Shown piece by piece: positions 38,581 to 59,212 of a stretch of 64,000 nt of DNA (within the stretch, counting starts at the first letter, position 1; each line of letters starts with the position of its first letter). The translations under genes were made by a program, and so were the position numbers. Source of the DNA: Sphingomonas sp. So64.6b (GTDB lineage Bacteria; Pseudomonadota; Alphaproteobacteria; Sphingomonadales; Sphingomonadaceae); the NCBI RefSeq assembly GCF_014171475.1, contig NZ_CP048817.1, positions 62,001 to 126,000 on the forward strand, written 5' to 3'. The notes under the pieces were generated by a model. It saw nothing but the letters and a program-made list of their open reading frames with translations. It was not told the DNA's origin and did not search any database.

Positions 38581-38919
38581 TCAGTCGTTCGCTGGCTTGG
38601 CGGAACCGGGGCTGGTGATGTCGGTCAGCGTCGCCTTGACCACACGGACCTTGACCGTCGGGGCGATCTCGACCTCGACAAAGCGCTCCTCGACCTTGGT
38701 CACCTTGCCCAGGATGCCACCGGCGGTGACGACCGAATCGCCCTTCTTGACCGCTTCGATGGTTGCCTGAAGCGCCTTCATGCGGCGTTGCTGCGGGCGA
38801 ATCATCAGAAAATAGAAGACGATGAAGACGAGAAACAGCGGCGCGAGGCTGAGGAACGAGCCCATGCCGCCACTGGCGGCCGAACCGGCGGTCTGGGCGT
38901 AGGCTGAGGGGATGAACAT
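38581..38919 (-). CDS. yajC: Sec translocon accessory protein YajC
   Basis: 112 residues: one membrane helix (FLSLAPLFLVFIVFYFLMI) followed by RPQQRRMKALQATIEAVKKGDSVVTAGG, the YajC motif. First gene of the yajC-secD-secF operon, separated from secD by 4 bases. Confidence 0.94.
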   Translation of the reverse strand: MFIPSAYAQTAGSAASGGMGSFLSLAPLFLVFIVFYFLMIRPQQRRMKALQATIEAVKKGDSVVTAGGILGKVTKVEERFVEVEIAPTVKVRVVKATLTDITSPGSAKPAND

Positions 38920-39089
38920 GCTTCTACCTGAATGGCGGGACGGCAGGGCGGACGCCCCACGCTATAAGCGCCGCGCGCTATCATCATCACCGGGGACACG
39001 CAACATTCGTGGTGCGCGACGAACATGCGGCAGCGAACACTGGACGCTTGCATCCGGCGCCACACCCGCATAGACGCGCTCGCCTCGGT

Positions 39090-39166
39090 CGGGGCGTAGC
39101 GCAGCCTGGTAGCGCATCACACTGGGGGTGTGGGGGTCGCAGGTTCGAATCCTGTCGCCCCGACCA
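39090..39166 (+). tRNA. tRNA-Pro (anticodon GGG)
   Basis: 77 bases. Acceptor arm CGGGGCG (39090-39096) pairs with CGCCCCG, discriminator A, CCA encoded (39164-39166). D arm GCGC...GCGC. Anticodon stem TCACA/TGTGG with loop CTGGGGG, anticodon GGG at 39124-39126. T arm GCAGG-TTCGAAT-CCTGT. Proline isoacceptor for CCC codons. The decayed accessory DNA begins right after it, so it may be an insertion site. Confidence 0.97.
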
Positions 39167-39535
39167 AGAAAATCAACGACTTAGTCCCGATTTTCAACCA
39201 ATCTTGGGGGTGTGCTTTTCGTGCTGGCAATCACCCAGCAATCACCGTGTGTGGTAAGCCGGAGCACTTTAGGGCAATCCGATTCGTGGCAGATCGAGTG
39301 ATCCGCATCCAAGTGCAAGCAATATCAGCGCGACTTTGGAAGAGTTTATGCGCGGCATATTGCCGGCTCGTCGATATTGATGTCAGGACGCAGTCGCAGC
39401 AGCGGCTCAGGCTGAGGACGATCAGCGAAGTGCTACGCTGCGCGCCGAAGAAGATGCCGCCAAGGATGCGCAGTATCAAGGATGCGCAGTATAAAGTCAG
39501 CTCGGAGCGGCCCAACAGAGCCGATCAAGCGCGGC
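39167..39535. other. Decayed DNA after tRNA-Pro
   Basis: 369 bases with no supportable gene. Composition is more AT-rich than the neighbours. At 39320-39480 one frame reads fragments such as LEEFMRGILPAR and AQAEDDQRSATLRAEEDAAKD, interrupted by a stop, which look like pieces of a former coding sequence that I cannot name. No integrase was seen. Confidence 0.5.
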
Positions 39536-39727
39536 GGATGCCGCGTTCCCGCCAACCCACGCGGCGGGCTGCGGCGGGATAGCTTCGATCCTGCCTCGAG
39601 TGCCATCCCGATCCCACGCAAGGTGCTGAAAGGCGGCTCGCACCTATGCGCCGCTAATTATTGCCAGAGTTGTTGTCCCGCCGCACGTCACCCACAGGCG
39701 CTGGACACTTCGACCAGTCATATCGGC
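39536..39727 (+). pseudogene. C-terminal fragment of formylglycine-generating enzyme
   Basis: The frame through 39482-39769 gives, from 39536, CRVPANPRGGLRRDSFDP, then IPIPRKVLKGGSHLCAANYC and PAARHPQALDTSTSHIG. This is the C-terminus of SUMF1/FGE-type sulfatase-modifying enzymes, which end GGSHLCAPNYC(R/K)RYRPAAR...DTSTSH(V/L)GFRC. The two active-site cysteines are at 39647 and 39662. The N-terminal four fifths and the final GFRC end are absent, so it cannot be a working enzyme. Such enzymes oxidise a sulfatase Cys to formylglycine; the arylsulfatase 8 kb downstream needs one. Confidence 0.85.
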
Positions 39728-39788
39728 ACCGCCGTATCATCCGCAGCAGGGAAGCTCGCCCGTAACTGACCGGCGGCAGGGCTGGGAG

Positions 39789-40304
39789 CTACTCTTGATT
39801 TTGAAAGTGACGGGCGGTGTACTCGACGGCCTTGGGCAGGTTCTCTGCGAAACGGGTAAGAAAATCGCGAAATTTGTCACGTTCCTCCGGGCTGAAGCCG
39901 TCCAGGAGCACTTCCTCACGTGATCGCGCCATGCGGACGATCTGGCGGTGGACGGGCAGACTCTCTGGCGTGGGCTTCGCGTAACGGCCATGCCTGCCGC
40001 TTTCGATCTTCAAAAGGCGGTTTTTTTCGAGCTTTTTGAGTGACTGGCTGACGGTCGCCTTGTTCATGCTCAAGATATCGCAGATTTCAAACGCCTGCAG
40101 TTCGCCGAACTCGTAGAGGATCGACAGGACCCGCGTCTCGTTTACGCCCATGCCGAGGACATCCAGGTACAGGCGCGACGCGTGCCAAGCATAGCCGTTG
40201 TTGGCCACGGTCAGCAGATGCGGAACGAACTGGTCCTTTTGCAGGTACGCCTCGCGATCGTAATCCGATGGCGGTCGATCGAATGCCTTTTTCATCTGCT
40301 CCAT
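39789..40304 (-). CDS. MarR-family transcriptional regulator
   Basis: 171 residues from the ATG at 40304 (or 40295). Winged helix: NETRVLSILYEFGELQAFEICDIL, recognition helix MNKATVSQSLKKLEKNRLL and wing KIESGRHGRYAKPTPES. Dimerisation helices flank it. MarR repressors usually bind small, often phenolic, ligands. Divergent from the P450 operon with a 129-base gap that holds the operator-like sequence at 40362-40398, so it probably controls that operon and itself. Confidence 0.88.
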   Translation of the reverse strand: MEQMKKAFDRPPSDYDREAYLQKDQFVPHLLTVANNGYAWHASRLYLDVLGMGVNETRVLSILYEFGELQAFEICDILSMNKATVSQSLKKLEKNRLLKIESGRHGRYAKPTPESLPVHRQIVRMARSREEVLLDGFSPEERDKFRDFLTRFAENLPKAVEYTARHFQNQE

Positions 40305-40361
40305 CGTGCGGTCGCCTGCCCTTGTGAGGGATCCGAATGCTGCATTCAGGATTGACTGTCC

Positions 40362-40398
40362 AGAGTTTGTGCTTAAACGAGAGTTTGATTACAAACTC
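40362..40398. promoter_or_regulatory. Candidate MarR operator
   Basis: A perfect inverted repeat GAGTTTG-ATTA-CAAACTC (40381-40398), preceded 18 bases upstream by the same half-site AGAGTTTG (40362-40369, repeated at 40380-40387). It lies between the divergent marR and P450 genes, 35 bases before the P450 start. Confidence 0.65.
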
Positions 40399-40433
40399 CA
40401 GCACCGACTGGCGTGACGCAGGGAGAGGAATGG

Positions 40434-41636
40434 GTGGCAGGCAGGTCAGAATCTGCGCGGACGATCATCGAGATCGATCCGTTTGCCGAGGAAACGCTGT
40501 GCAACCCCGGCACTTTCGATCGCGCCGCGCTCGCGGCGGAGTCGGTCCTCTATCTTCCGCAATACGACCTGTGGGCGCTCGCCCGACACGATCTGGTCAA
40601 GTCCGCGTTCGCCGATTGGCGCCGTTTTTCTTCGGCATCGGGAACCGGGCTGACCAACATCGGGAAGGCCGCCGTCTGGCGTCGCCCAAGCCTGATCCTG
40701 GAAAACGATCCGCCCGATCACGGGCGTTATCGCAAGATCATGGCAAGCGTACTGACCGGCGAGACGCTGACGCGTATTCGCGCGCAGTTTGCGGAAACTG
40801 CCGACGCACTGGCTGCGGCGCTTGTCGCGCAGGGCGAATTCGACGCCGCCAAGGATTATGCCCAGATCTTTCCCTTCATCGTGGTGCCAACGATGTTAGG
40901 GCTGCCGGAGGAGCACCGCGAGGCGATGCTCACCTATTCCGAGCTTAACTTCAACGCGATGGGTCCCGACAACCTCCTTCTAAAACAATCGCGCGAAAAG
41001 GCTGCGCCGATCATGGAAGTCGTGGTTGAGCATTGCCGTCGCGAGCGGCTGTCCGACGATGGCCTGGGCGCCCGGATTTACGCGGCCTGTGCCCAGGCGG
41101 GTATCGACGAAGACGATGCCGCCGTGCTGGTCCGCACCTTTTTTTCGGCCAGCATGGACACGACGATGAATGGCATCGGCTTCGCGATCCAGTCGCTGGC
41201 GCAACACCCTGAGCAATGGGCGCTGGTCCGCCGGGATCTTTCACTGGTCAAGGCAGCATTCGACGAGAGCCTGCGGCACCGATCGCCCAGTCCCTATATC
41301 GGTCGCACCACCACCTGCGATGTCGAGATCGAAGGCGTGACGATCCCGGCCGAGAGCAAGGTGTTGCTACTGGTCGGCGCCGCAAACCGGGATCCGCGTC
41401 GTTTCGATGATCCGGACCGCTTCGACCTGCGTCGTAACTCGGCCGGTCATGTTGCCTTCGGCGTCGGCATCCATGCCTGCATCGGCCAGATGGTCGCCAA
41501 GCTTGAGGCGGAGATGGCGCTGGAGGCGCTTGCTCGTCACGCCGCCACGATCGTGCCGGCTGGCGAGCCGCGCTATCAGATGAACAACTGGCTGCGCGGC
41601 CTGTCGTCGCTGCCGATCCGGGCGACGGCGGCATGA
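40434..41636 (+). CDS. Cytochrome P450, CYP199-like
   Basis: 400 residues from the GTG at 40434, which has GGAGAGG (40422-40428) five bases upstream; the earlier in-frame GTG at 40413 has none. Heme-binding FGVGIHACIG with Cys349, ExxR as ESLR, I-helix FFSASMDTT (acid and Thr present, the usual Gly replaced by Ser). The stretch VGAANRDPRRFDDPDRFDL and GHVAFGVGIHAC closely follows CYP199A enzymes, which oxidise para-substituted benzoates, including O-demethylation. No ferredoxin or reductase partner is in the window. First gene of the accessory operon. Confidence 0.88.
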   Translation: MAGRSESARTIIEIDPFAEETLCNPGTFDRAALAAESVLYLPQYDLWALARHDLVKSAFADWRRFSSASGTGLTNIGKAAVWRRPSLILENDPPDHGRYRKIMASVLTGETLTRIRAQFAETADALAAALVAQGEFDAAKDYAQIFPFIVVPTMLGLPEEHREAMLTYSELNFNAMGPDNLLLKQSREKAAPIMEVVVEHCRRERLSDDGLGARIYAACAQAGIDEDDAAVLVRTFFSASMDTTMNGIGFAIQSLAQHPEQWALVRRDLSLVKAAFDESLRHRSPSPYIGRTTTCDVEIEGVTIPAESKVLLLVGAANRDPRRFDDPDRFDLRRNSAGHVAFGVGIHACIGQMVAKLEAEMALEALARHAATIVPAGEPRYQMNNWLRGLSSLPIRATAA

Positions 41637-42964
41637 CCGCTGTCGGCAATGACGCACTGCCGCCAGAGGCGCCCAGCTCCCCACGGTTCGCCTATGGTCC
41701 GGTGCGGGCATGGGCGGTGGTGGTGGTATTGTTATTTGCCTATGCCGTCTCGTTGATCGATCGCCAGGTCCTCAGCCTGCTGGTACAGCCGATCAAGGCG
41801 AGCCTGGCGATTTCCGACACGCAGGTCAGCTTGTTACACGGCCTGGCATTCGCAATCTTCTACACGATGTTCGGCATCCTGATCGGCCGGGCGGTCGATA
41901 CATATAACCGGCGTAACATCATCGTCGCGGGGATGACATTGTGGTGCATGGCGACCGTCGCCTGCGGCATATCGAGCAGCTTTGCAGGGCTGTTCATCGC
42001 GCGCATGTTCGTGGGCGTCGGCGAAGCGACACTGTCGCCCGCCGCCTTCTCGATGATCGCGGACTATTTTCCGCCCGAACGGCGTGCGCGTGCGATGAGC
42101 GTCTTTTCGACCGGCGTGTTCGTCGGATCGGGACTTGCGCTGATCCTGGGCGGTGTCGCGATCGAGGCGACCGAGCGTTACGCCGGCACCAGCGTACCGC
42201 TGATCGGGCAGGTCGAGGGCTGGCAGCTCGCCTTCTTCGCGGTCGGCGCGCCGGGGCTGCTGATAGCCGCCTTGATCGCGCTGGTGCGCGAGCCTGCCCG
42301 CATGGAAGTGAGCGCCGAGGGTGCGGGCGTTGCCGACAGCCTGGCATTCTTCCGCCGGAACGGTGCGGCGCTTGGCACGATGATGCTGGCGTTCGGCGCA
42401 AATGGCCTGATCAATTTCAGTCTCTCAGGTTGGGCGCCGACGTATTTCATCCGGGTATATGGCTGGTCGGCGGGCCAGATCGGTGCGATCTATGGCACGC
42501 TGCTGCTCGTCTGCGGAACGTCGGGGATCATGCTTGGCGGCTGGATCGCCGATCGCCTTGTCCTGCGCATGGGCCCGCGGGGCGCTCTCGTTACGATGCG
42601 CTGGTCGGCGCTGTTGATGATTCCGTCGCTCGCGGCATTTGGCTTCGTGTCGACACCGCTCACCGCGTTGATCGCGCTCGGCTGGTCGTGCTTCGTGCTG
42701 GGTCTGCCCACCGGACTGGCGCCGGTCGCGCTCTACTCGATCACCCCCAACCAGTTTCGGGGCCAGGTGACTGCCTGCTATCTGTTCGCGGTGACGATGA
42801 TCGGCATGACGCTCGGCTCGACCCTGATCGCTCTGTGTACCGATTATCTTTTCCGCGACGAGACCGCAGTTGGTCGATCGCTCGCGCTCGTGGCCAGTTG
42901 TGCTGCCGCCGTGAGCTTCGTCAGCCTGACGATTTCACAGCGGATCCAGGATCGCGCATCATGA
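41633..42964 (+). CDS. MFS transporter, spinster-like
   Basis: 443 residues with 12 hydrophobic segments. It begins before TM1 (AWAVVVVLLFAYAVSLIDRQVLSLL) and has the A motif in the form GRAVDTYNRRN and RMFVGVGEATLSPAAFSMIADYFPPERRARA. The class includes transporters often found with aromatic catabolic genes in sphingomonads. The ATG at 41633 overlaps the P450 stop (ATGA). Likely carries the P450 substrate or a product across the inner membrane (inference). Confidence 0.88.
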   Translation: MTAVGNDALPPEAPSSPRFAYGPVRAWAVVVVLLFAYAVSLIDRQVLSLLVQPIKASLAISDTQVSLLHGLAFAIFYTMFGILIGRAVDTYNRRNIIVAGMTLWCMATVACGISSSFAGLFIARMFVGVGEATLSPAAFSMIADYFPPERRARAMSVFSTGVFVGSGLALILGGVAIEATERYAGTSVPLIGQVEGWQLAFFAVGAPGLLIAALIALVREPARMEVSAEGAGVADSLAFFRRNGAALGTMMLAFGANGLINFSLSGWAPTYFIRVYGWSAGQIGAIYGTLLLVCGTSGIMLGGWIADRLVLRMGPRGALVTMRWSALLMIPSLAAFGFVSTPLTALIALGWSCFVLGLPTGLAPVALYSITPNQFRGQVTACYLFAVTMIGMTLGSTLIALCTDYLFRDETAVGRSLALVASCAAAVSFVSLTISQRIQDRAS

Positions 42965-44679
42965 AGAGGCTCATCAACGCGGCGTCGGACGTGACGGTGG
43001 ACATGCTCGCGGGCATCGCTTTGGCCGACCGACGCGTGCTTATCATGCCTGAATATAACGTCATCGTACGTGCGGACTATGCCACCTATTGCGACATCGG
43101 CCGGGTGGCGCTGGTCTCGGGCGGCGGTTCGGGGCACGAACCTGCGCATGCCGGTTATGTCGGCGCGGGCATGCTGACGGCGGCGGTCGCAGGCGAAGTC
43201 TTCACTTCGCCCAGCGTCGACGCGGTGCTTGTCGCAATTCGGCTGGTCACTGGGCCGGCCGGATGCCTGCTGATCGTCAAGAACTACACCGGCGACCGGC
43301 TGAATTTCGGATTGGCGGCGGCGCTGGCGCGGGCGGAAGGGCTGAAGGTCGCGGTTGTCCTCGTCGACGACGACGTTGCCCTTGCAGCTGGCAAGAGCCG
43401 CGCCGGAGCACGCGGTCTCGCCGGCACGATGCTGGTGCACAAGGTCGCCGGCGCCGCTGCCGAAGCCGGCGCAACGCTCGAAGCGTTGCAAATCGAATTG
43501 GAACGGCTCGTACCCAATATCGGTACGATGGGAGTCGGACTCTCGGCTTGCACCGTACCGGTCAATGGCACCCCCAGCTTCGTATTGGCCGATGACGAAA
43601 TCGAATATGGGCTGGGCATCCACGGCGAGCCAGGCGCGAGCCGCGAGCCGCCCGCGGCGGCCGAAGCGATCGCGCGACGTCTGATCGACACGATCGCGGA
43701 GCGCAAGTCGATCAAAGCAGGTGCGCGGGTGGTACTCATGATCAATGGCCTAGGCGGCACGCCGCCTGCCGAGCTCTCGATCGTCGCGGGATCAGCGATC
43801 CAGATATGCCGCGAGCGTGGCTTCATCGTCGACCGCGTCATGGTCGGTTCATTCCTGACGGCGCTCGAAATGGCAGGCTGTTCGATCACCCTGGCCATCG
43901 CGTCCGAGCAGATGCTCGATCGACTGGATGCGCCAACCGACGCGCCGGCTTGGTCCACGCCGCTGACACCGGCTTCGAAGCTTCAGCTGCTTGCCGCCCC
44001 CGTCACCGCACCGGCTCTTGTGTCGACGGGCGGCCCCCTCGCCAGCCCCGCCATGCAAGTGCGGCTACGCGCCGCCGTTCAGGCGTCGGCCGACGCTCTG
44101 ATTGCGGCGGAACCGGTGCTGACGGAACTCGACAGCAAGGTCGGCGACGGCGATCTCGGCATCAGCATGGCGCGGGGCGCGCGCGCCGTTCTACATGAAC
44201 TCGACGCGCTCGATCCGGCACACCCGGCTGTCATGCTCGAGCAGATATCGGCCATTCTACGACGCAGCGTCGGGGGCACGTCCGGTCCACTCTATGCGGC
44301 ATTGACGCTGGCAGTCGCGATCAGCCTGCGTGAAGAGGGCGGTATTTTGGCGCTCGCTGATTGGGCCCGCGCGCTTGCCGCCGGGTGCCAGGCGATCACG
44401 GATCTGGGCGGCGCCAAACACGGCGACCGCACGATGCTCGATGCCCTTGTTCCGGCGACCGAGGCGCTGGTCAAGGACGCGCAGGGGGGCAGCAGCGCCG
44501 ATGATGCGCTGGCAAGGGCGGTGCATGCGGCGCGGGCCGGCGCCGACCGAACCGCCGCGCTCGATCCACGCTTCGGACGATCCAGCTACGTTGGTGATCG
44601 CGCGATCGGCCACGTCGATCCCGGCGCGGAAGCCGTCACCGTCTGGCTCGGCGCGCTGCCGAAATCCGATCCGCAATGA
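42961..44679 (+). CDS. Dihydroxyacetone kinase, DhaK-DhaL fusion (ATP type)
   Basis: 572 residues; the ATG at 42961 overlaps the MFS stop (ATGA). DhaK part (1-325): GGGSGHEPAHAGYVG, KNYTGDRLNFG and GLGIHGEPG with His221, which in the family covalently binds the substrate carbonyl. DhaL part (about 355-570): DSKVGDGDLGISMARG for Mg-ATP and GGTSGPLYAAL. Relatives phosphorylate dihydroxyacetone, glyceraldehyde or other short ketoses, and some cyclise FAD. It is unexpected in a P450/sulfatase operon, so the true substrate may be a C3 or C4 fragment of the imported compound. The frame is open upstream to 41941 but that is MFS shadow. Confidence 0.9.
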   Translation: MKRLINAASDVTVDMLAGIALADRRVLIMPEYNVIVRADYATYCDIGRVALVSGGGSGHEPAHAGYVGAGMLTAAVAGEVFTSPSVDAVLVAIRLVTGPAGCLLIVKNYTGDRLNFGLAAALARAEGLKVAVVLVDDDVALAAGKSRAGARGLAGTMLVHKVAGAAAEAGATLEALQIELERLVPNIGTMGVGLSACTVPVNGTPSFVLADDEIEYGLGIHGEPGASREPPAAAEAIARRLIDTIAERKSIKAGARVVLMINGLGGTPPAELSIVAGSAIQICRERGFIVDRVMVGSFLTALEMAGCSITLAIASEQMLDRLDAPTDAPAWSTPLTPASKLQLLAAPVTAPALVSTGGPLASPAMQVRLRAAVQASADALIAAEPVLTELDSKVGDGDLGISMARGARAVLHELDALDPAHPAVMLEQISAILRRSVGGTSGPLYAALTLAVAISLREEGGILALADWARALAAGCQAITDLGGAKHGDRTMLDALVPATEALVKDAQGGSSADDALARAVHAARAGADRTAALDPRFGRSSYVGDRAIGHVDPGAEAVTVWLGALPKSDPQ

Positions 44680-44711
44680 CACATAAGATAATAAATCGAG
44701 GAGGGACAATC

Positions 44712-47186
44712 ATGACAACCACCACTCGCAAGCATGGTTTGCTGTTCGGCGCTTCGACTGCGGCTCTGTTGATGGCCACGGCCGCACATGGGCAGACGAT
44801 TAACGGCCACCCCCAGCCCCAGTCGCCGTCTGCCGACGCGGTGACGCCTGAACAATCGGCACCCGCTGTTCCCGATAAGACATCGCCTGCGTCTGCCGCG
44901 CCCGACACAGGCTCAGAATCGCAGTCCACACCCCCCGGCGACGCGGTCAGCACCGGCGACATCGTCGTGACGGCGCAGTTTCGTACCCAACGCCTTCAAG
45001 ACACCCCGTTGGCCATCACTGCGCTGAACGGCGCATTGCTTGAGTCCAAGGGCGCGAGCAACATTCTCGACGTCGCCAATGCCGCGCCGAACGTGACGAT
45101 GCGTCAGGCCGGCGGTGCTAACGGCGGTGCTGCGCAGGTCTTCATTCGCGGCGTCGGCCAGGCAGATTCGCAATTCGCGTTCGAGCCGGGCGTCGGCATG
45201 TACGTCGACGACGTCTATTACGGCACCGTTTTCGGCTCTATTTTCGACCTGCTCGACCTCGATCGGGTCGAAGTGCTGCGGGGACCGCAGGGCACGCTGT
45301 CGGGCCGCAATTCGATCGGTGGCGCGGTCAAGCTGTTTTCCAAGAAGCCCGAGAGCGGCAACAGCGGCTATGTCGAGGCCGCCTATGGCCGCTTCAACCG
45401 CCTCGAACTGAAGGGCGCCGCCAATTTCGAGCTGATTCCCGACAAACTGATGGTGCGCGTGTCCGGCGTGGCGAAGCGCTCCGACGGCTACTTCAAACGC
45501 TTCGACTATGGCTGTCTCAATCCGAACAGCGGCGTACAATCGTCCGCGTCGGGCAATTGCCAGACCGGCGAGGAAGGCGGCCGCAACTTTCAGGCGGGCC
45601 GCCTGGCGCTGCGCATTATACCCAGCGATAACGTCGAGGTGAATCTGATCGGCACGATCACGTCCGATGATTCCCAGGTCGCGCCGCAGAAGTTGCGGGA
45701 CATCACTACGCGCGCGAACATTCCCGCCGGGATCGATCCGCGCATTTTCATCCCAGGCGCGGAGGATCGGTTCAGCTACGCTACCTACATAAGCCCGGCG
45801 TTCACCGATCCGGCGCGCTTCAACGGCATCCCCGGAGCGGGCGCGCACCCGGCGGTAGCTCTTCAGCCCAACATGCGCCTGCGTGCGAAGATGATTTCCG
45901 GTGCGATCGACTGGGACCTGTCCGATGATCTGACGCTTACCTCGATCACCGCATACCAGCATTATACCGGCAGCAACGCGACGGACATCGACCTGACGCC
46001 GTATGGGCTGAACACCGTATTGTCGACGTATCGCTATAACCAGTTCACTCAGGAATTGCGCCTGGGCGGATCGCTGCTCGACAAGTTTCTGGATTATACG
46101 ATCGGCGCCTATTATTTTAAGTCGGTCGGTCGGTTCGAGGGGGCCAATTACAATCTTCCCGGATTGGCAAACGAGAATATATACGCCTCCAACGACCGTA
46201 TCCCTTCCGAGAGCAAGTCGGTGTTTGCCCATGTTACGGCAAACATCACCGATCGACTCTCGCTGATCGGCGGACTTCGCTATACGAAGGATCGCAAGGA
46301 CTATAGTTTTGGTCGCCTGAACCCGTTCTTCCCCAATCTGCCATCCTACACCTCGGCAGGCCAGATCAACGGAGTCACGGGCAGTTATCGCGGGAACAGC
46401 GTCGATTACCGCGCCAATCTGCAATATCGATGGTCGGATCAGTTGATGACCTATGTCCAGTTCTCCACTGGCTATCGCGCGGGCGGCGTCAATCCGCGTC
46501 CTTATGTCCTGGATCAGGCAGTGCCGTTCGATTCGGAGCGGTTGCAGGCGTACGAGGTGGGATTCAAGGCTGATCTGTTCGGTCGCGTGCTGCGACTGAA
46601 CGGCTCCCTCTTCATCAACGAGTACAGCGACATCCTGTTCAACAACCAGTCGCCGACCCTCACCAGCGTGCTGAATTCGACTCCGGTCAACGCCGGCGAT
46701 GCGCAGTTTCAGGGCGTTGAGCTGGAAGCCAATATCCGTCCGCTCGACGGGCTTCTGATCGATGCCTCGGGCAGCTATCTCGGCTTCGACTTCAAACGCA
46801 TCGGTGCCGCCGGGGCGACGATAACCGGAATTTCGCTGGATAATCGAGCGCCGTTCGCGCCCGAATGGAAGGGCAATCTCGGGATGCAGTACGAGATTGT
46901 GACGAACGGCAAGGGCTCGGTCACGCCACGCTTCGACATCTCCTATCAATCGTCTTTCTTCCCGCAGGTCGACAACGACCCGCGCGCACGGGTGAAGGGA
47001 TACGCGCTCGTCAACACGCGTCTCACGTGGATGAACGATGATCGCGATCTGCAGGTCGCTCTCACGATTTCGAACCTGCTGGACAAATATTACGACATCA
47101 GTGCGCTGAAATATCCGATCGGCGTCGTGTCCGCGACACCGGCACCACCGCGCGAATGGCGTCTTAGCGTTCGCAAAAGTTTCTGA
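44712..47186 (+). CDS. TonB-dependent receptor
   Basis: 824 residues from the ATG at 44712, GAGGAGGGAC upstream. Signal peptide (GLLFGASTAALLMATAAHGQ), a Pro/Ser/Gln-rich linker (to about 80), TonB-box-like DIVVTAQFRTQRLQDTPLAI, plug with FIRGVGQADSQFAFEPGVGMYVDDVYYG and LRGPQGTLSGRNSIGGAV, and a barrel ending in RKSF. Outer-membrane uptake of the cluster's substrate is the likely role. It lies between the kinase and sulfatase genes on the same strand, gaps 32 and 53 bases. Confidence 0.92.
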   Translation: MTTTTRKHGLLFGASTAALLMATAAHGQTINGHPQPQSPSADAVTPEQSAPAVPDKTSPASAAPDTGSESQSTPPGDAVSTGDIVVTAQFRTQRLQDTPLAITALNGALLESKGASNILDVANAAPNVTMRQAGGANGGAAQVFIRGVGQADSQFAFEPGVGMYVDDVYYGTVFGSIFDLLDLDRVEVLRGPQGTLSGRNSIGGAVKLFSKKPESGNSGYVEAAYGRFNRLELKGAANFELIPDKLMVRVSGVAKRSDGYFKRFDYGCLNPNSGVQSSASGNCQTGEEGGRNFQAGRLALRIIPSDNVEVNLIGTITSDDSQVAPQKLRDITTRANIPAGIDPRIFIPGAEDRFSYATYISPAFTDPARFNGIPGAGAHPAVALQPNMRLRAKMISGAIDWDLSDDLTLTSITAYQHYTGSNATDIDLTPYGLNTVLSTYRYNQFTQELRLGGSLLDKFLDYTIGAYYFKSVGRFEGANYNLPGLANENIYASNDRIPSESKSVFAHVTANITDRLSLIGGLRYTKDRKDYSFGRLNPFFPNLPSYTSAGQINGVTGSYRGNSVDYRANLQYRWSDQLMTYVQFSTGYRAGGVNPRPYVLDQAVPFDSERLQAYEVGFKADLFGRVLRLNGSLFINEYSDILFNNQSPTLTSVLNSTPVNAGDAQFQGVELEANIRPLDGLLIDASGSYLGFDFKRIGAAGATITGISLDNRAPFAPEWKGNLGMQYEIVTNGKGSVTPRFDISYQSSFFPQVDNDPRARVKGYALVNTRLTWMNDDRDLQVALTISNLLDKYYDISALKYPIGVVSATPAPPREWRLSVRKSF

Positions 47187-47239
47187 ACCACCACCGGCGG
47201 GTTCCGACCGAGCCGCCATCCCTTGCATCAAGGAGAGCC

Positions 47240-49549
47240 GTGTTGAATCGCCAGTTCCTTCGCCGCGCCGCCAAGGTTTCGAGCATAGCCATCGCGGCCA
47301 TGATGTCGCTCAACGCGGGGATTGTGCCGGTGATCGCGCAGACCCAGTCCGTCGGCGCTTATCCGGAACGGCCGAAAGCCCCGAAGGGCGCGCCGAACAT
47401 TATCGTCATCATGACCGACGATGTCGGCTTCGCTGCCAGCAGCACTTTCGGCGGACCGGTGCCGACGCCGGTTTTCGACGCGCTGGCGGACAAGGGCGCG
47501 CGCTATAACCGGTTCAACACCACGGCCATGTGCTCGCCCACCCGCGCTGCGCTGCTCACGGGGCGCAACCCTCACGAAGTGGGCTTCGGCGTCATCAGCG
47601 AAGAAGCGGCACCCGCCCCAGGCTATAATTCGGTCATTCCGCGTTCGGCGGCAACGTTTGCCGAAGTGCTCGGCATGAACGGCTATAACACGGCGATGTT
47701 TGGCAAGCATCACAACGCGCCGCTATGGGAGGACACGCCCGTCGGCCCGTTTGATCATTGGCCTACCGGGCTTGGCTTTGACTATTTTTACGGCTTCCTC
47801 GGCGGTGCGACCAACCAGTTCGCACCCGCGCTCTATGAGAATCGAGAGTGGAGGGAGGCACCGCAGGACGATCCGAACTACATCCTGGATCGTGATCTGG
47901 CCGACCACGCCATAAAGTGGATGAATACTCAGCGTAGCGTGAGTCCCGATGCGCCGTTCCTGATCTATTACGCGCCCGGTTCCGCGCACTCGCCCCATCA
48001 GGCACCGCCTGACTGGATCGCCCGCTTCAAGGGTCATTTCGATCAGGGGTGGGACAAGGTTCGCGACGCAAGCTTTGCACGCCAGAAAAAGACCGGCGTC
48101 ATCCCCTCGACCGCTGCCCTGACGCCGCGCCCGCCCGTGATCCCCGCCTGGGACTCACTGACCCCGGACGCAAAGCGCGTGGAGGCCCGCATGATGGAAA
48201 TCTATGCCGCGCAACTCGCCTTCGCCGACGATCAAATCGGTCGTTTGATCCAGGCGGTGAAGGACAATGGCGACTTCGACAACACGCTGATCGTCTTCAT
48301 TCAGGGCGACAACGGCGCCAGCATGGAGGGGTCCCCGATCGGAACGATGGACGAGATCGCCCGCGGCAAGAACGCAATGCCCGACACGCTGCAGGATCAA
48401 CTTGCCAGGATCGACGACTTTGGAACGAAGCACTCATGGAACAATTACGGGATCGGCTGGGCGTGGGCGATGAACACGCCCTTTCAATGGGGCAAAGCGA
48501 TTGCCTCGCACCTGGGCGGCGTGCGCAACGGTATGGTCGTGAGCTGGCCGAGGGGGCTTCAGAAGCCGGGACAGATGCGGACCCAATTCACGAACGTGAC
48601 CGACATCGCGCCAACACTCTACGAGGCGGCGGGCATCGCCATTCCCGAATCCGTTCATGGGGTGAAGCAGATGCCGCTGGCGGGCACCAGTTTGGCGTAT
48701 ACTTTCCGACAGCCGAACGCCGCCAGCCGGGACGAAGAACAATATTGGGAACTGCGGGAAAATATCGCCTTCTACGAGAAAGGTTGGCTCGCCGCGACGA
48801 CGCCCCGGGTGATGCCGTGGGATAAGGAGGCGCCTCCAGCAAGCGGCACGCCCGTCGAGTGGCAGCTCTACGACCTGAACAGCGACTTCAGTCAGTCGCG
48901 CGACCTCGCCGCGAAAAACCCGGCCAAACTTGCCGAATTGAAGCAGGCTTATGCGGCGGTCGCGGCGCGCAATCAGGTTGGCTTGCCCGCCGGGGTGTCG
49001 GCGGCGGCGGCGCGTCCGTTTCTTTCCAACGGGCAGACCCGCTTCGTATACCGAAACAGCGACCAGCGTCTGTCGCGGTACAGCTTTGCCAATATCATGA
49101 ACCGATCGTGGCAGGTGACAGCCGACATCGTCGTTCCCGAAACCGGCGGCGACGGTGCCCTGGTCGCGCAAGGCAGTCGGCTGGGCGGCTGGGGGTTACT
49201 TATGATGAACGGGCGACCCGCCTTCCTGTACAACGCCTCGATCCTCGACCGTGACAAGACGCGCATCACCGGCGGCGACGTGCTGAAGCCGGGCGCACAC
49301 AAGATCGTCGCTGATATCGTGTACGACGGCGGTGGTCGCGGAATGGGCGCAAGCGTTCGCATCCTGATCGACGGACGGGAAGTATCGCGCGGTCGCGTGC
49401 CCCGCACGATCGGCGCTCTTCTCGTCAGCGAAGGCGGTGCGTCGATCGGGCGCGATTACGGAACGACGCTGTCCGACGATTATGCCAGCCCGTTCGTTTA
49501 TCCCGGCACGATCGACAAGGTCGTGATCGATGTGGGGCCGACCCGCTGA
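47240..49549 (+). CDS. Arylsulfatase, formylglycine type, exported
   Basis: 769 residues from the GTG at 47240 (AGGAG at 47231; a TTG at 47243 is also possible). Signal peptide to about VIAQTQ. IVIMTDDVGF gives metal-binding Asp residues; MCSPTRAALLTGR holds Cys98, the residue turned to formylglycine; FGKHHNAP and GDNGAS supply Lys/His and further metal ligands. Beyond the catalytic domain lies a beta-rich C-terminal region (about 590-769). It frees sulfate from an aryl or alkyl sulfate ester in the periplasm. It needs a formylglycine-generating enzyme; only a fragment of one is seen nearby. Confidence 0.92.
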   Translation: MLNRQFLRRAAKVSSIAIAAMMSLNAGIVPVIAQTQSVGAYPERPKAPKGAPNIIVIMTDDVGFAASSTFGGPVPTPVFDALADKGARYNRFNTTAMCSPTRAALLTGRNPHEVGFGVISEEAAPAPGYNSVIPRSAATFAEVLGMNGYNTAMFGKHHNAPLWEDTPVGPFDHWPTGLGFDYFYGFLGGATNQFAPALYENREWREAPQDDPNYILDRDLADHAIKWMNTQRSVSPDAPFLIYYAPGSAHSPHQAPPDWIARFKGHFDQGWDKVRDASFARQKKTGVIPSTAALTPRPPVIPAWDSLTPDAKRVEARMMEIYAAQLAFADDQIGRLIQAVKDNGDFDNTLIVFIQGDNGASMEGSPIGTMDEIARGKNAMPDTLQDQLARIDDFGTKHSWNNYGIGWAWAMNTPFQWGKAIASHLGGVRNGMVVSWPRGLQKPGQMRTQFTNVTDIAPTLYEAAGIAIPESVHGVKQMPLAGTSLAYTFRQPNAASRDEEQYWELRENIAFYEKGWLAATTPRVMPWDKEAPPASGTPVEWQLYDLNSDFSQSRDLAAKNPAKLAELKQAYAAVAARNQVGLPAGVSAAAARPFLSNGQTRFVYRNSDQRLSRYSFANIMNRSWQVTADIVVPETGGDGALVAQGSRLGGWGLLMMNGRPAFLYNASILDRDKTRITGGDVLKPGAHKIVADIVYDGGGRGMGASVRILIDGREVSRGRVPRTIGALLVSEGGASIGRDYGTTLSDDYASPFVYPGTIDKVVIDVGPTR

Positions 49550-49776
49550 CAGCTGACACCACTCAGCTTGGGCGGCTGAGCGGGGTGCTTTGAAAGTCTG
49601 ACGATCGACGAGATGGCGTTCGAGATTGAAGTGGTAGTGGACGGTCGCATGGACGCTGACGAACCTCTGCAGCGTCTTCATTCGTCGAACGGGAGCATTG
49701 CTCGCTCGCGTCATCGGAACGGCAGGTGGCTGTTCCCGACCCTGTTGGCCCAGCGTCCACCTCCTGCTTCTCGGCG
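49550..49776 (-). mobile_element. Relic of IS6-family transposase, C-terminal part
   Basis: Minus-strand reading from 49776: RREAGGGRWANRVGNSHLPF, then an in-frame TGA (49713-49711), RERAMLPF, then after a one-base loss near 49676-49690 RRMKTLQRFVSVHATVHYHF, NLERHLVDRQTF and RSAAQAEWCQL. This matches the C-terminus of IS6-type DDE transposases (ENSHLPFRRRERAM...RRM..LQ.F...H...NHFN.ERHL). No inverted terminal repeat is visible and the N-terminal catalytic part is missing. One edge touches the sulfatase stop codon, the other the truncated epoxide hydrolase. Confidence 0.85.
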
Positions 49777-50462
49777 CAGCATGGTTGGGCTATGACCGCT
49801 TCGTCGCACAGGGCGGCGATTGGGGCGCGATTGTCACAGAGCAGATCGGCGTCCAAGCGCCCCCTGGACTTCTCAGCATTCACGCCAACATGCCTTCGGC
49901 CGTGCCCGCGGAAGTGGCAAGCGCTCTGCACTCCGGCAACGGGCCGCCGGCGGAACTTTCGAGCGAGGAGCGCCAGGCGTTCGAGCGCATCAGCTTCTTC
50001 TTCGCCCATGGCGTGTCGTACGCCCAGCTAATGGCGAACCACCCGCAGACGCTGTACGGCCTTGCGGACTCCCCGGTGGGGCTCGCGGCCTGGTTCATCG
50101 ATCACGATCTGCGCAGCTATCGGCTTATCGCCCGCGTGTTCGCGGACGAACATGAGGGGCTCACGCGCGACGACATACTCGATAATATCACTTTGACCTG
50201 GCTGACCAACTCGGCAATTTCCGGAGCGCGCCTGTATCGCGAGAACAAGCTTCCCTTCTTCGCCCCGATGGGCGTCAAAGTTCCGGTCGCAATTACCGCC
50301 TTTCCGGACGAGCTTTACCAGTGTCCGCAAAGCTGGGCCGAGCGGGCCTATCCTAACCTCATCCACTATAATCAGGTGGAAAAGGGCGGGCATTTCGCGG
50401 CGTGGGAGCAGCCAGCGATCCTGACACAGAAACTGCGAGCAGCCTTCCGCTCGCTGCGCTGA
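49777..50462 (+). pseudogene. Epoxide hydrolase (EHN/microsomal type), N-terminus missing
   Basis: From about 49782 the frame reads WLGYDRFVAQGGDWGAIVTE, the nucleophile elbow (Asp in GGDWG) of epoxide hydrolases with an EHN domain, and continues to the catalytic His in VEKGGHFAAWEQP near the end. The C-terminal part (about 225 residues) is intact. Relatives are about 380-400 residues, so the EHN domain and first strands are gone; the codons before 49782 belong to the transposase relic. The frame stays open to 49698, but no good start site is seen. Probably non-functional. Confidence 0.82.
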
Positions 50463-50661
50463 TTATGACGCGGGCGGCACGAGTCTGGGCGACGTCCGCC
50501 CATGTTATTATTTGGAGTATCTATGCGGCGTCGGGGGCAGGTTGAGCCAGCTTGGTTGCATCATGCGGCTGGCTCGACGCTCATGCGTTAACCGTTTAGC
50601 CGAATTGCGATAAAGCCCGTTTCGGGCTTATCCTGTTGCGACGGAAGGGCCTGATTGAACG
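50463..50661. other. Intergenic hairpins
   Basis: Two stem-loops: GAGCCAGC (50544-50551) with GCTGGCTC (50568-50575), and AAGCCCG-TTT-CGGGCTT (50613-50629) followed by a short T-rich stretch. They may end the upstream transcript. No gene seen. Confidence 0.5.
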
Positions 50662-51060
50662 ATGCAAAGAATCGCGGTTTTGATCATCGACGATTCGGTC
50701 ACAATTCGCGCGATGATGGAGCAGGTTCTGCTTCACGATCATCAATTCGAAGTGGCCGGTATCGCTTCCAGCGTGGACGAAGCGCGGCAGATGATGCGTA
50801 CCATTTCTCACGACGTCGTGACGCTCGACCTGTCGATGCCGGATATCGGCGGCCTCGAATTTCTTGACGAGCTGTCGACCCGGACTCACGCGCCGATCGT
50901 CGTGGTCTCTTCGTCCACCAGGAGCGAAAGTCCCGCAGCAGCTGAGGCGCTGGAACATGGCGCATTTGCCTGCTTCGACAAGGCAAGGCTGGTCGCCGAC
51001 GTGCGTGGTTTCCTTGGCGTTCTGCGAAAGGCGGCGACCGGGAAGAAGCGCGCGCAATAA
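50662..51060 (+). CDS. Stand-alone receiver-domain protein (CheB-receiver-like)
   Basis: 132 residues, all receiver domain. Acidic pocket Asp10/Asp11, phospho-acceptor Asp56 in LDLSMPDIGG, VSSST (82-86) and Lys107 in FDKARL. The region resembles the receiver of CheB-type methylesterases (VLIIDDSVTIRAMM; IVVVSSSTRSES) without the esterase domain. No kinase is adjacent, so it is an orphan. Might act as a phosphate sink or in chemotaxis. Confidence 0.85.
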   Translation: MQRIAVLIIDDSVTIRAMMEQVLLHDHQFEVAGIASSVDEARQMMRTISHDVVTLDLSMPDIGGLEFLDELSTRTHAPIVVVSSSTRSESPAAAEALEHGAFACFDKARLVADVRGFLGVLRKAATGKKRAQ

Positions 51061-51138
51061 TCCGCCGGCTCATCCCCCATATTTCGGGGACACAATATTA
51101 AATGTCCGGCTTTGCACAACGATGACGTTTGCACCCCC

Positions 51139-51549
51139 CTAATCAACAACCTGCTGAAGCATCTCGTCGATCAGGCGTTGATCCTGATCGAGCACCCAGC
51201 ATTCGGCCAGCAGGGAATCCCTGACGGCATAGATCAGCGTGCGGTCGATCTCGACCGGACGTCCCCCGATCGAAATCTCCTCGCGCGCCAGGATCACGCC
51301 GCGCGTGGCGCCCGCGGCTATGTCGCTGATCTCGATCAGGCGTCGCCGCGACCGGCGGGAGAAATCCGCCAGTACGGCCAGCGCTGCACCCTTGCCGCGA
51401 TGCACGCCGGCCAGCGGGCTCGTCCCGAAATAATGAAGCGTGAAGTCGTCATGATAGCATGACATGATCGCCTGCAGGTCCCCGGCACGCCATGCCGCGG
51501 CGTAGCGCGTCAGGACGGTGAGGATGTCGTCGCTTGCACTATCATCCAT
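51139..51549 (-). CDS. SnoaL-like / NTF2-fold protein
   Basis: 136 residues. Pattern of the polyketide-cyclase/ketosteroid-isomerase fold: VLTRYAAAWRAGDLQAIMSCYHDDFTLHYFG, then GKGAALAVLADFSR. No signal peptide. Members are isomerases or binding proteins of many kinds; the role cannot be inferred. Divergent from the malonyl-CoA synthetase gene. Confidence 0.7.
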   Translation of the reverse strand: MDDSASDDILTVLTRYAAAWRAGDLQAIMSCYHDDFTLHYFGTSPLAGVHRGKGAALAVLADFSRRSRRRLIEISDIAAGATRGVILAREEISIGGRPVEIDRTLIYAVRDSLLAECWVLDQDQRLIDEMLQQVVD

Positions 51550-51941
51550 CGCCGATCCCTTTCGTCAACTTGATGCAACAACCTTGACCGAATAGCCGCA
51601 CGGCTTTCGCAGGATTGTACCGAAATTCCGCTAATTAATTGATTGTCGAGGATAAATTACAGAATTTTCAGCATATCGCCGCACCAAAGATATGACACGA
51701 CCGGTGTCCCATATCTCCCCCATTCTTCACCGCCCTGGTTGATTCAAGCGCCGTTCGACCGCCGCTAGCACAGCAATCATGGCAACACGCGTTCCAAACT
51801 TTAAACCGACTCACGTCCTGGACCGCAACCCGGGCGAGTATCGCGCCCCGCTCGCTACTCGGCCAGCCGATCGCCTGTTGCGCCATCGCCGGTTCCGCGC
51901 TTCAAGGCGCTGCCCAAACAAAGCGGACTGAGGCGGAATCG
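51550..51941. other. Intergenic region upstream of malonyl-CoA synthetase gene
   Basis: 392 bases without a supportable gene. An AT-rich stretch (51640-51680) precedes the operator-like palindrome at 51688-51716. A 50-codon ATG frame at 51779 has an arginine-rich product without features and is not called. Confidence 0.6.
51688..51716. promoter_or_regulatory. Operator-like element shared with the rut region
   Basis: AGATATGACAC (51688-51698), spacer GACCG, GTGTCCCATATCT (51704-51716): an imperfect palindrome. A nearly identical element lies at 58184-58212 before rutB, and a third GTGTCCCATATCT is at 58154. Downstream of both, GATTCAA is repeated (51741 and 58244). This kind of conservation between two distant promoters suggests one regulator. 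Confidence 0.7.
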
Positions 51942-53453
51942 ATGAGCAATCTCTACAGCCGGCTCGCCGCTTGCTTTCCAAACGATACCAAGCCGTTCGC
52001 ACATCTATCCGACGGCAGGGTCGTCACTTATGGCGACCTGGAGATCGAAACGGCGCGCTACGCCAACGCGTTGACTAAACTGGGCGTCGCGATCGGCGAT
52101 CGGGTCGCGGTGCAGGCGGAAAAGAGCATTGAGTTGCTGATCCTCTACCTTGCCTGCGTTCGTGCGGGTGCGGTGTTTCTGCCGCTCAACCCGGCCTACA
52201 CGGCGGGCGAGCTCGACTATTTCATGCGCGATGCCGAACCTGCGTTGTTCGTGTGCGATCCCGCCAGCCAGACCCGGATCGAAACGCTCGCGGCGGCTGC
52301 CGGAATCGCCCGGGTCGAAACGCTCGATGCGTCGGGCGGCGGATCGCTGCCGGCGATCGCTGCGTCGCAGCCCGCCCTGTTCGAGACGGTCGAGCGCGAC
52401 GACGATGATCTCGCGGCGATCCTCTACACCTCGGGAACGACGGGCCGGTCCAAGGGCGCGATGCTCAGCCACGATAATCTCGCCTCCAACGCCTTTACGC
52501 TGAAGGAGTATTGGCGCTTCACCGGCGATGATGTGCTGCTCCACGCGCTGCCGATCTTCCACACGCACGGCCTGTTCGTCGCGACCAACATCATGCTCGC
52601 CGCTGGCGGATCGATGCGCTTCCTGGCCAAATTCGATGCCGAAGCGGTGCTGCGCGAATTACCGCATGCGACGGTCATGATGGGCGTGCCGACCTTCTAT
52701 ATCAGATTGCTGGGCGAGCCGCGCTTCACGCGCGATCTGGTCGGCCATATCCGCTTGTTCGTGTCGGGCTCGGCACCGCTCTCCGCCGACATCCATCGTG
52801 AGTTTGCGGGCCGTACCGGGCACGCGATCCTCGAACGCTATGGCATGACCGAAACCAACATGAACACGTCGAACCCCTATGACGGCGACCGGCGCGCCGG
52901 CACGGTGGGTTTCCCGCTGCCCGGCGTATCGATCCGCACCGTCGATCCCGAAAACCACGCGCCGCTGGCGCAGGGCGAGGTCGGGATGATCGCGATTGCC
53001 GGTCCCAACGTGTTCAAGGGATATTGGCGAATGCCCGAAAAGACCGCAGCGGAATTCCATGACGGGCATTTCCTGTCCGGCGATCTGGGTTTGATCGATG
53101 ACCGCGGTTACGTCTCGATCGTCGGCCGGGCCAAGGACCTGATCATTTCGGGCGGTTACAACGTCTATCCGGCAGAGGTCGAAACCGCACTCGACGAGCT
53201 TGAGGAAATCCATGAATCGGCGGTGATCGGCGTGCCGCACCCCGATCTCGGCGAGGGCGTGGTCGCGGTCGTCGTGCCGCGCGAAACCGGATTTGCCGAT
53301 TCCGGGCGGGTCAAGGCGTTGCTGGCGGACAGTCTGGCGCGCTTCAAACAGCCGCGCCGTATCGTCTTTGTCGATGCCCTGCCCAAGAACGCGATGGGCA
53401 AGGTGCAGAAGACCGTGCTGCGCGCCGACTATGGGGACAGTTTTACGGGTTAG
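51942..53453 (+). CDS. matB: Malonyl-CoA synthetase-like acyl-CoA ligase
   Basis: 503 residues, ATG at 51942 with GAGGCGGAA upstream. ANL superfamily motifs: YTSGTTGRSKGAMLSH (AMP), RYGMTETNMNTSNPYDGDRRAGTVG, GDLGLIDDRGYVSIVGRAKD and catalytic Lys in NAMGKVQKT. HALPIFHTHGLFVATN and the TSNPYDGDRRAGTVGFPLPG stretch follow MatB rather than long-chain ligases. MatB makes malonyl-CoA from malonate, CoA and ATP. No malonyl-CoA decarboxylase or malonate transporter is next to it. See the shared operator with rut. Confidence 0.83.
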   Translation: MSNLYSRLAACFPNDTKPFAHLSDGRVVTYGDLEIETARYANALTKLGVAIGDRVAVQAEKSIELLILYLACVRAGAVFLPLNPAYTAGELDYFMRDAEPALFVCDPASQTRIETLAAAAGIARVETLDASGGGSLPAIAASQPALFETVERDDDDLAAILYTSGTTGRSKGAMLSHDNLASNAFTLKEYWRFTGDDVLLHALPIFHTHGLFVATNIMLAAGGSMRFLAKFDAEAVLRELPHATVMMGVPTFYIRLLGEPRFTRDLVGHIRLFVSGSAPLSADIHREFAGRTGHAILERYGMTETNMNTSNPYDGDRRAGTVGFPLPGVSIRTVDPENHAPLAQGEVGMIAIAGPNVFKGYWRMPEKTAAEFHDGHFLSGDLGLIDDRGYVSIVGRAKDLIISGGYNVYPAEVETALDELEEIHESAVIGVPHPDLGEGVVAVVVPRETGFADSGRVKALLADSLARFKQPRRIVFVDALPKNAMGKVQKTVLRADYGDSFTG

Positions 53454-53883
53454 GCATCCGCGTGACCTGGATATGCACTGCGCGCCACTCGCCCTTGATG
53501 CGGCGGAAGGTGTCGGAAAAGCGGAAGCGGCTGGCGAAGCTCTTGCCGCCCGAACTGCCCTTCAACAGCGTTTCCGCGCCGACCACACCGGCATCCGGAC
53601 CCAGTTCCGTCACCGTGCGGTCGACCAGCACGATCGGCTCGAAGCGGTCGTCGGGTGCGGTCCACCCTTCGATGAAGTCACGCTTGCCGAGCCGCTTGCC
53701 CGATCCGTCGATGAACACCAGATCGTCGGACACCATCCGTTCGAGCGCGGCGCCATCCTTGGTCAGCTGCGCCTGGTCGAACCTATCCGCGAAGGCGACC
53801 AGCGTGTCGGCAGCGCGATCCGCCGGCGCGGCGAGGGGGGGTGACGCCGTGGCGAGCGCAAGCATCGAAATCAAAAGCTTCAT
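53443..53883 (-). CDS. Exported SnoaL/DUF4440-like protein
   Basis: 146 residues from the ATG at 53883. Signal peptide (LLISMLALATASPPLAA), then an NTF2-like domain: VAFADRFDQAQLTKDGAALERMVSDDLVFIDGSGKRLGKRDFIEGW. Ends GEWRAVHIQVTRMP. Periplasmic, function unknown. Overlaps the end of the ligase gene tail to tail by 11 bases. Confidence 0.75.
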   Translation of the reverse strand: MKLLISMLALATASPPLAAPADRAADTLVAFADRFDQAQLTKDGAALERMVSDDLVFIDGSGKRLGKRDFIEGWTAPDDRFEPIVLVDRTVTELGPDAGVVGAETLLKGSSGGKSFASRFRFSDTFRRIKGEWRAVHIQVTRMPNP

Positions 53884-53933
53884 CGTCGATTCCCCGGTTC
53901 GGTCGGCTTGTTGTGACAGCGTCGTCCGGGCAT

Positions 53934-54536
53934 TCAAGGCACTCGCTTGAAATCGGAGATCCAGTTCACTTCCCAGGTCTTGCCCGCATCGCCGGAAAAG
54001 GATTGTTCGATCCGGAACGCCTTGTCGACCACCGGAGTGAAGATGAAGCGCACGAAGATCTGGCGGTCGCCGAGCGTGTCTTCATTGTAGAATTCACCGC
54101 GCCCGCTGGCGTCGAAACCGCCGATCATCGCCCGTGTGATCCCGCCGTCGCGGCTGCTCGCCCAGCTGACCTTCCATTGATGCGATGCCGGATCGTAGAG
54201 CCTGAGGCTCAGGCCTTCGATCTGCCCGGCTGGACCCGACACATTGAGCTCGCCGAGATTGGCCTTGCCGCCCCACACTTTGCGCACCACCGAGCTGCCG
54301 TCATACTCGACCCATTCGGTTGATCCGGTGAGTGGTTTGGTGCGGCGCGCGATGTGCGCGGTCCATGATCCGAACTCGAAATCGAAATCGCGGCTCCCGT
54401 CGCGCAAGACCGGCATGACTCGCCCGTCGGGCCGTGCCGTCGGTGCGGTGGACTGGGCGATCGCCGGCGCCGGTTGAAGCGCGACGATCGCACTGGCGAT
54501 CAGCGTCCGGATCGAAAGTCGGGCGATCTTGCCCAT
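53934..54536 (-). CDS. Conserved exported protein, unknown
   Basis: 200 residues. Signal peptide (LIASAIVALQPAPAIAQ), then a beta-rich domain with RDFDFEFGSWTAHIARRTKPLTGSTEWVEY and RIEQSFSGDAGKTWEVNW. I recall such sequences as DUF1579-like exported proteins but cannot name a function. Co-directional with 53443 and 54572. Confidence 0.7.
   Translation of the reverse strand: MGKIARLSIRTLIASAIVALQPAPAIAQSTAPTARPDGRVMPVLRDGSRDFDFEFGSWTAHIARRTKPLTGSTEWVEYDGSSVVRKVWGGKANLGELNVSGPAGQIEGLSLRLYDPASHQWKVSWASSRDGGITRAMIGGFDASGRGEFYNEDTLGDRQIFVRFIFTPVVDKAFRIEQSFSGDAGKTWEVNWISDFKRVP

Positions 54537-58463: not shown

Positions 58464-59212
<749 letters not shown>

Follow-up and report, generated by a model that had tools for sequence, protein, structure and literature searches.

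What reaction would bring a cytochrome P450 gene and a dihydroxyacetone kinase (DAK) gene together in one operon? The question is raised by a locus of Sphingomonas sp. So64.6b, which lies in a stretch of 64,000 nucleotides (NZ_CP048817.1, positions 62,001 to 126,000; here called the window, whose own numbering is used throughout) of a 5.06 Mb genome on a single contig. At this locus a MarR-family gene diverges from genes for a P450, a major facilitator superfamily (MFS) transporter, a fused DAK, a TonB-dependent outer-membrane receptor and a sulfatase. We conclude with high confidence that these form a coherent catabolic operon, in which familiar protein families occur in an unfamiliar, recurring combination; no paper on this gene set was found in the library searched, which does not hold most subscription journals. 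We tentatively propose, at somewhat less than even odds, that an aromatic acid is dealkylated by the P450, that the group lost is a carbonyl compound of three carbons, either glyceraldehyde or dihydroxyacetone, and that the kinase then phosphorylates it.

The MarR gene occupies positions 39789 to 40304 on the minus strand (PF12802, 40.4 bits against a cut-off of 27). The other five genes follow one another on the plus strand: the P450 gene (40413 to 41636; PF00067), assigned by its residues and by a tree to an SPxI sister clade of CYP199A; the MFS gene (41633 to 42964; PF07690, 148.4 bits); the gene for a fused DhaK-DhaL kinase of the DAK family (42961 to 44679; 572 amino acids; PF02733 and PF02734); the receptor gene (44712 to 47186; PF00593 and PF07715); and a type I sulfatase gene (47240 to 49549; PF00884, 200.6 bits), whose product has a signal-like N-terminus by eye. 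The initial annotation had placed five genes and a MarR gene here in these families, and the profile matches agree with it in family and position. The P450 and MFS genes overlap in an ATGA at 41633, and the MFS and DAK genes in another at 42961 (gap of −4 in each case). The receptor reading frame opens at 44676, but the start at 44712 was preferred because the ATG there is preceded by AGGAGG; with this start the gap between the DAK and receptor genes is 32 bases, and that between the receptor and sulfatase genes is 53 bases, both as originally described.

Scanning genome contigs with the window P450 yielded six loci (L001 to L006), and genome searches added L038 and L073. L003, L005 and L002 are the same places as L041, L042 and L037, respectively, and the distinct loci carrying the core genes number seven (window, L001, L002, L038, L041, L042 and L073). 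The whole six-gene set is present in the same order in L001, from a marine metagenome-assembled genome (MAG; 69–88% identity), in L002 (genome G175; 58–73%) and in L038 (genome G115; 58–72%); thus the orthologues are not scattered. L041 and L042, from Sphingomonas MAGs, have the arrangement MarR-receptor-P450-DAK, and L073 (G408) has P450, MFS and DAK genes on one strand with MarR and receptor genes on the other. P450, DAK, MarR and TonB receptor genes are each found at all seven loci, and in every locus of this P450 group that was read the P450 and DAK genes adjoin, in three different gene orders. The P450, DAK and transporter genes of L042 are in pieces (11155 to 15397; G117) and are all whole in its near relative L041, so they may reflect an assembly fault or decay. 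The P450s of L004 and L006 (38 and 36% identity) have residues of neither the SPxI nor the canonical type, and no DAK match was found at these loci. Many of the flanking open reading frames (ORFs) were identified by their likeness to window genes or by visual inspection. The conserved order, together with a MarR gene at seven of seven loci, bears out the earlier view of one co-inherited uptake-and-catabolism operon with its own regulator gene.

The window P450 is related to CYP199. Among solved sequences the 18 best score 309–337 bits, against 180 for the next, and those with specific names are CYP199; identity to CYP199A4 is 42%. In PbdA, as reported, an Arg and two Ser residues hold the substrate carboxylate, three Phe, an Ala, a Thr and a Val form the pocket, and all of these are conserved in CYP199A4 (PMC11530827); for CYP199A4 another report names Arg92, Ser95, Ser244 and others (PMC11854964). 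The correspondence between the two numberings was drawn in this analysis. Aligned with CYP199A4, all six intact operon P450s keep R92, S95 and R243. In the pocket F182, A248 and T252 are kept, the changes F185M, V295S and F298I are found in six of six, and N stands at 181. Eight canonical sphingomonad relatives all have F185 and S244, and seven of them have V295 and F298.

A protein search, in which 7999 candidates were scored, gave 153 homologues at 1e-100, and the best 120 of these were examined. Leaving aside the window P450 itself, 109 of the 119 are of the SPxI type, six look canonical and four are neither. Among the SPxI proteins listed, R92 and S95 are present in all 107 that cover these positions, and R243 in 109 of 109. 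In a tree of 44 chosen sequences a branch with support 100/99 separates 16 canonical sequences from 28 others, with the window P450 on the side opposite CYP199A4, and the DAK-linked P450s all fall in one group of 15 (100/97). The nearest named full-length relatives come from Altericroceibacterium and Aurantiacibacter, and the L073 P450 is almost identical to one named from Novosphingobium sp. NBM11. The SPxI proteins also include rhodobacterial and actinobacterial ones, for example from Oceanicola sp. S124, Celeribacter neptunius and Microbacterium sediminicola. Judged by alignment and tree, the enzyme is not a canonical CYP199A but a member of a sister clade with a rebuilt pocket; the initial description of it as CYP199-like is supported as to relationship. 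Its substrate would bear a carboxylate and would probably be aromatic; at the end that is oxidised it would carry another kind of group, bulkier or more polar. Because the P450 lies outside canonical CYP199A and its pocket is rebuilt, a methoxybenzoate is not the obvious substrate, and both the pocket residues and the tree speak against plain 4-methoxybenzoate demethylation. Some members of the SPxI clade are labelled 4-methoxybenzoate monooxygenase in the source database, a label that is probably wrong. The same genome encodes a second, canonical CYP199 (L074, G000:C1:758120-759280; 44% identical to the operon P450), which stands among genes resembling an aromatic-acid cluster.

The window kinase has Dak1 and Dak2 domains in one chain. 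It scores 595.9 bits with the broader family model NF011049 (cut-off 492), and its 522.5 bits with the glycerone kinase model TIGR02361 are under the cut-off of 574.95. Four DAK motifs with substrate and nucleotide roles, SGGGxGHEPAHAG, NYTGD, GxGIHGExG and DxxVGDGDxG, are all present in six aligned P450-linked kinases. The surroundings of canonical CYP199 genes were read at 16 loci, over 9 to 20 kb per locus. No DAK gene was in view at any of eight sphingomonad loci, at seven plasmid loci (seven of the 20 best rows, with 63 records found) or at the single locus from a class sample in which two of 106 genomes matched. Plasmid searches for the SPxI clade gave no recognised member: the seven places read are all canonical CYP199, and the best rows of two further searches are in part the same records. 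At L149, on pRL12 of Rhizobium ruizarguesonis, genes for a CYP199 P450, a ferredoxin and a reductase are followed by three formaldehyde genes, namely S-(hydroxymethyl)glutathione dehydrogenase, fghA and gfa. By analogy with these, a triose kinase adjoining the variant P450 suggests that the leaving group is a triose. The initial annotation had the kinase phosphorylate a short keto fragment; its small-keto-substrate motifs are indeed present, and the change we suggest is that the kinase goes with the P450 itself and points to a three-carbon leaving group.

The reaction sequence that we propose would run as follows. The TonB receptor would bring an organic acid across the outer membrane, the sulfatase, in the clade of the window, would remove sulfate in the periplasm, and the MFS protein would carry the product into the cell. 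There the P450 would hold the compound by its carboxylate and hydroxylate a carbon next to a heteroatom; the hydroxylated product would collapse and free glyceraldehyde or dihydroxyacetone, where CYP199A would free formaldehyde, and the DAK would phosphorylate this carbonyl compound to a triose phosphate. The P450 may be served by a 2Fe-2S ferredoxin, whose gene stands next to the operon in some relatives and elsewhere in the window genome. Ferredoxin genes are found near three of the seven loci, directly after the sulfatase gene in L002 and L038 and, in L041, some 4 kb away from that for MarR; the orthologue in the window genome, at G000:C1:334070-334381, is 65% identical. If the proposal is true, it names a reaction, the release by a P450 of a triose where formaldehyde would otherwise be lost, and points to an unnamed class of substrates used by sphingomonads; should the three-carbon reading prove wrong, the repeated pairing of P450 and DAK would still offer a way into an undescribed pathway. 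More speculatively, and rather doubtfully, the P450 clade might perform an undescribed oxidative removal of a whole three-carbon polyol group, as glyceraldehyde or dihydroxyacetone, from a carboxylate-bearing natural product, with the operon DAK returning the three-carbon unit to glycolysis and the sulfatase and receptor dealing with a sulfated form.

The alternative that survives best is that the kinase acts on a three- or four-carbon sugar fragment from another part of the compound, such as a sugar side group or a piece freed when the ring or a side chain is cleaved later on, the group removed by the P450 not being its substrate. Kinases of the DAK family accept a number of small keto and aldehyde sugars, which counts for this explanation, and fused DAK genes elsewhere adjoin sugar transporter genes (L136 and L137). 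However, the sulfatase apart, the seven loci have no hydrolase or aldolase in common, and the P450 and DAK genes stay paired while the sulfatase and the transporter type vary. We consider this explanation possible, though unlikely. In methylotrophic yeasts dihydroxyacetone synthase fixes formaldehyde onto xylulose 5-phosphate, and a DAK phosphorylates the dihydroxyacetone formed. The operon P450 might likewise still be an O-demethylase, whose formaldehyde would be converted with xylulose 5-phosphate to dihydroxyacetone, by a synthase encoded elsewhere, before the DAK acts. The P450 is nearest to known O-demethylases and the DAK motifs are intact, as this would have it, but the lack of a DAK gene in view at all 16 canonical CYP199 loci read makes it improbable, as do the changes that all six intact P450s show where the pocket surrounds the leaving group; nor was a dihydroxyacetone synthase gene recognised in the operons, the genome itself not having been searched for one.

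The sulfatase bears on a third alternative. Its PF00884 domain carries the motif C-x-P-x-R, as CSPTR; the window genome encodes three sulfatases, and matches of the formylglycine-generating enzyme (FGE) family exceed the cut-off at four places in it, in five pieces. The best solved relatives are named arylsulfatase, a name that is a lead because the score with the NF010322 arylsulfatase equivalog, 94.7, is under the cut-off of 481. A sulfatase gene is found at four of the seven loci, in the same order (window, L001, L002 and L038), and none was matched in the 16 to 20 kb stretches of L041, L042 and L073, the rest of those genomes not having been searched. Since only four of the seven core loci have it, desulfation is an optional add-on to a core of receptor, transporter, P450 and kinase. 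The scheme first proposed, an operon for a sulfated methoxybenzoate-type compound with desulfation as its defining step, draws on the conserved place of the sulfatase gene in four genomes and on the FGE-family proteins; against it stand the three stretches lacking a sulfatase match and a P450 pocket unlike that of methoxybenzoate enzymes, and we give it little credence. In L001 a second sulfatase gene (PF00884) and a second receptor gene, together spanning 3352 to 7646, lie about 2 kb to the left of the operon MarR gene. The window type of MFS transporter is found at five of the seven loci. In L041 a different MFS gene follows the DAK gene; its best NCBI model is aromatic acid/H+ symport (E 8.8e-94), with 314.6 bits under a cut-off of 418.55, and L042 has a transporter of the same type by eye, in two pieces. 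An aromatic acid substrate would agree with the type of the L041 transporter.

Control of the operon was considered in the 108 bases between the MarR and P450 genes. This gap holds TTGACT, a possible −35 element seen by eye on the plus strand (40352 to 40357) and kept in L001, L002 and L038, and a pair of adjoining palindromes of 18 bases each. The first is an imperfect copy with two mismatches (40363 to 40380, plus strand), and the second, GAGTTTGATTACAAACTC (40381 to 40398, plus strand), is perfect, unmatched by any of 1000 shuffles of the gap, and is predicted to be the likely MarR operator. A scan for promoters and terminators did not report TTGACT at 40352, and its results were close to those for shuffled sequence. 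The pattern GAGTTTN6AAACTC has one match in the 5.06 Mb genome; as the backward-read control also occurs once, this uniqueness alone proves little, and it is not exceptional (20 of 100 shuffles) for 64 kb to hold two palindrome matches with at most two mismatches. The best palindrome of the corresponding gap is perfect in L041 as in the window, has one mismatch in L002 and L038 and two in L001, and in each of these five gaps 0 to 3 of 1000 shuffles were as good. That of L042 is weak (three mismatches; 29 of 1000 shuffles as good). The case for the palindrome as an operator thus lies in its position and conservation, not in uniqueness. A MarR homologue (31–82% identity) is encoded at all six other loci, and the operon is likely to be MarR-controlled through the palindrome, so far as sequence conservation indicates.

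Kinase matches were found in 29 of 298 genomes of the family, 22 of which had only the separate-subunit type at about 40–45%, and in 20 of 396 genomes of the order, four of them very weak. Across both samples, fused kinases near 50% identity or more occur in nine genomes. Six of these also have the P450 (the window genome, G175, G115, G034, G408 and G117, the last with its fused kinase in two pieces of 59 and 45% identity). P450s at E 1e-110 or better are found in five of 397 family genomes, with a DAK gene adjoining in all five. In the order sample the window genome gave the only kinase match within its genus, and a second sample, equal to it in size and scope, includes 45 further genomes of that genus. 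The operon is thus patchily distributed: the kinase is rare, and within the genus the sample gave no match to it outside the window genome. Such patchiness would suit genes that came together by chance and have separate functions, but with the order kept at 58–88% identity in three other genomes and a promoter block conserved with its palindrome, accidental clustering was ruled out as a serious explanation and keeps only a very slight probability. Of the three fused-kinase genomes without the P450 (G270, G076 and G536), G536 has its DAK gene downstream of genes for the alpha and beta subunits of a Rieske oxygenase and for a reductase of the PanE/ApbA type (L120:9484-14094); here a DAK accompanies an oxygenase of another kind, which counts in favour of the proposal. 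Five fused kinases from outside the sphingomonads have neither P450 nor Rieske genes next to them; a ring-cleaving dioxygenase gene lies about 9 kb from that of L135.

Several observations weigh against a P450 that feeds a triose to the kinase. No operon gene names a substrate, and the second carboxylate-binding Ser, S244, is replaced in all six intact P450s, by T in five and by I in one. The loci are only seven, four of them close relatives; the P450-DAK context was read for six of the 15 sequences in the corresponding tree group, and the loci read leave out most of the SPxI clade, including its rhodobacterial and actinobacterial P450s. A 14-row kinase tree places the L073 kinase together with those of L039 and L040, which are P450-free (100/99), and no P450 match was found in the stretches read around the fused DAK genes of G270 and G076. 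The P450-linked kinases are thus not one clade, a pattern that could come from independent recruitment or from a weak association. On that tree the P450-linked label requires at least two changes; even so, only 3 of 500 shuffles of the labels gave a number as low, so that the label is clustered beyond the shuffled ones, which fits two recruitments, or one gain with losses. Nor does the L073 gap support the palindrome (four mismatches; 244 of 1000 shuffles as good). A distant MarR protein as the cause was dropped, because that of L041 is as distant (33% versus 36%) and its palindrome is perfect.

The flanking DNA was compared separately. On the right side, an epoxide-hydrolase-like remnant and genes for a response regulator, a SnoaL protein and a malonyl-CoA synthase were rejected as operon parts, there being nearly no matches at the loci of relatives; in eleven loci compared, nothing matched but a receiver domain of L073 (28%), and another comparison added a distant ligase, that of L004 (33%). 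The ORF at 49698 to 50462 (plus strand) resembles by eye the C-terminal part of an epoxide-hydrolase-type protein, lacks the first half, has no Pfam match and is probably a remnant. The malonyl-CoA synthase gene (51942 to 53453, plus strand) scores 804.9 bits with NF005702 (cut-off 558), and one of six genus genomes searched has a near relative (G498, 59%). Further on, three ORFs (58098 to 61554, plus strand) resemble by eye RutB, RutD and RutA of the pyrimidine pathway. On the left, near secD, a tRNA-Pro(ggg) gene (39090 to 39166) borders differing stretches in L124, L125, L127 and L128. G498, G155, G245 and G091 have the same tRNA-Pro gene near secD followed by other genes, and the stretches read there hold no operon; near secD of G533 the tRNA-Pro gene was not found. 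The tRNA-Pro/secD site is possibly an insertion-prone place without a visible integrase. An island attached at the tRNA gene was not supported, as 38900 to 56000 holds no repeat of the tRNA end and no integrase was recognised among the ORFs read.

Among known systems, the closest to the operon P450 are CYP199A4 and PbdA of Rhodococcus jostii RHA1, which O-demethylate 4-methoxybenzoate. The operon P450 shares Arg92, Ser95 and Arg243 with them, and a ferredoxin-type partner is encoded near some of its relatives, but it lies on a separate branch, with changes at Ser244, Phe185, Val295, Phe298 and residues around 296–299, and the window operon has a DAK gene in place of formaldehyde genes. The L149 cluster likewise joins a P450 gene to genes possibly using its leaving group, whereas its P450 is canonical, its ferredoxin and reductase genes are inside the cluster, and no DAK, receptor or sulfatase gene is listed there. 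With 1un9, which we take to be an ATP-dependent dihydroxyacetone kinase of the Citrobacter type, the window kinase shares the fused DhaK-DhaL layout in a near full-length match (E 5.9e-85); it differs in standing in a P450 operon and in scoring below the glycerone kinase cut-off. The sulfatase aligns over about 520 residues of the catalytic domain, with CSPTR, to 1hdh and 4cxk, presumably arylsulfatases of the Pseudomonas aeruginosa type, and differs from them by some 200 extra C-terminal residues that have no Pfam match. Porphyran-type loci also combine P450 demethylases with sulfatases and outer-membrane uptake; unlike the window operon they belong to a polysaccharide system with glycoside hydrolases.

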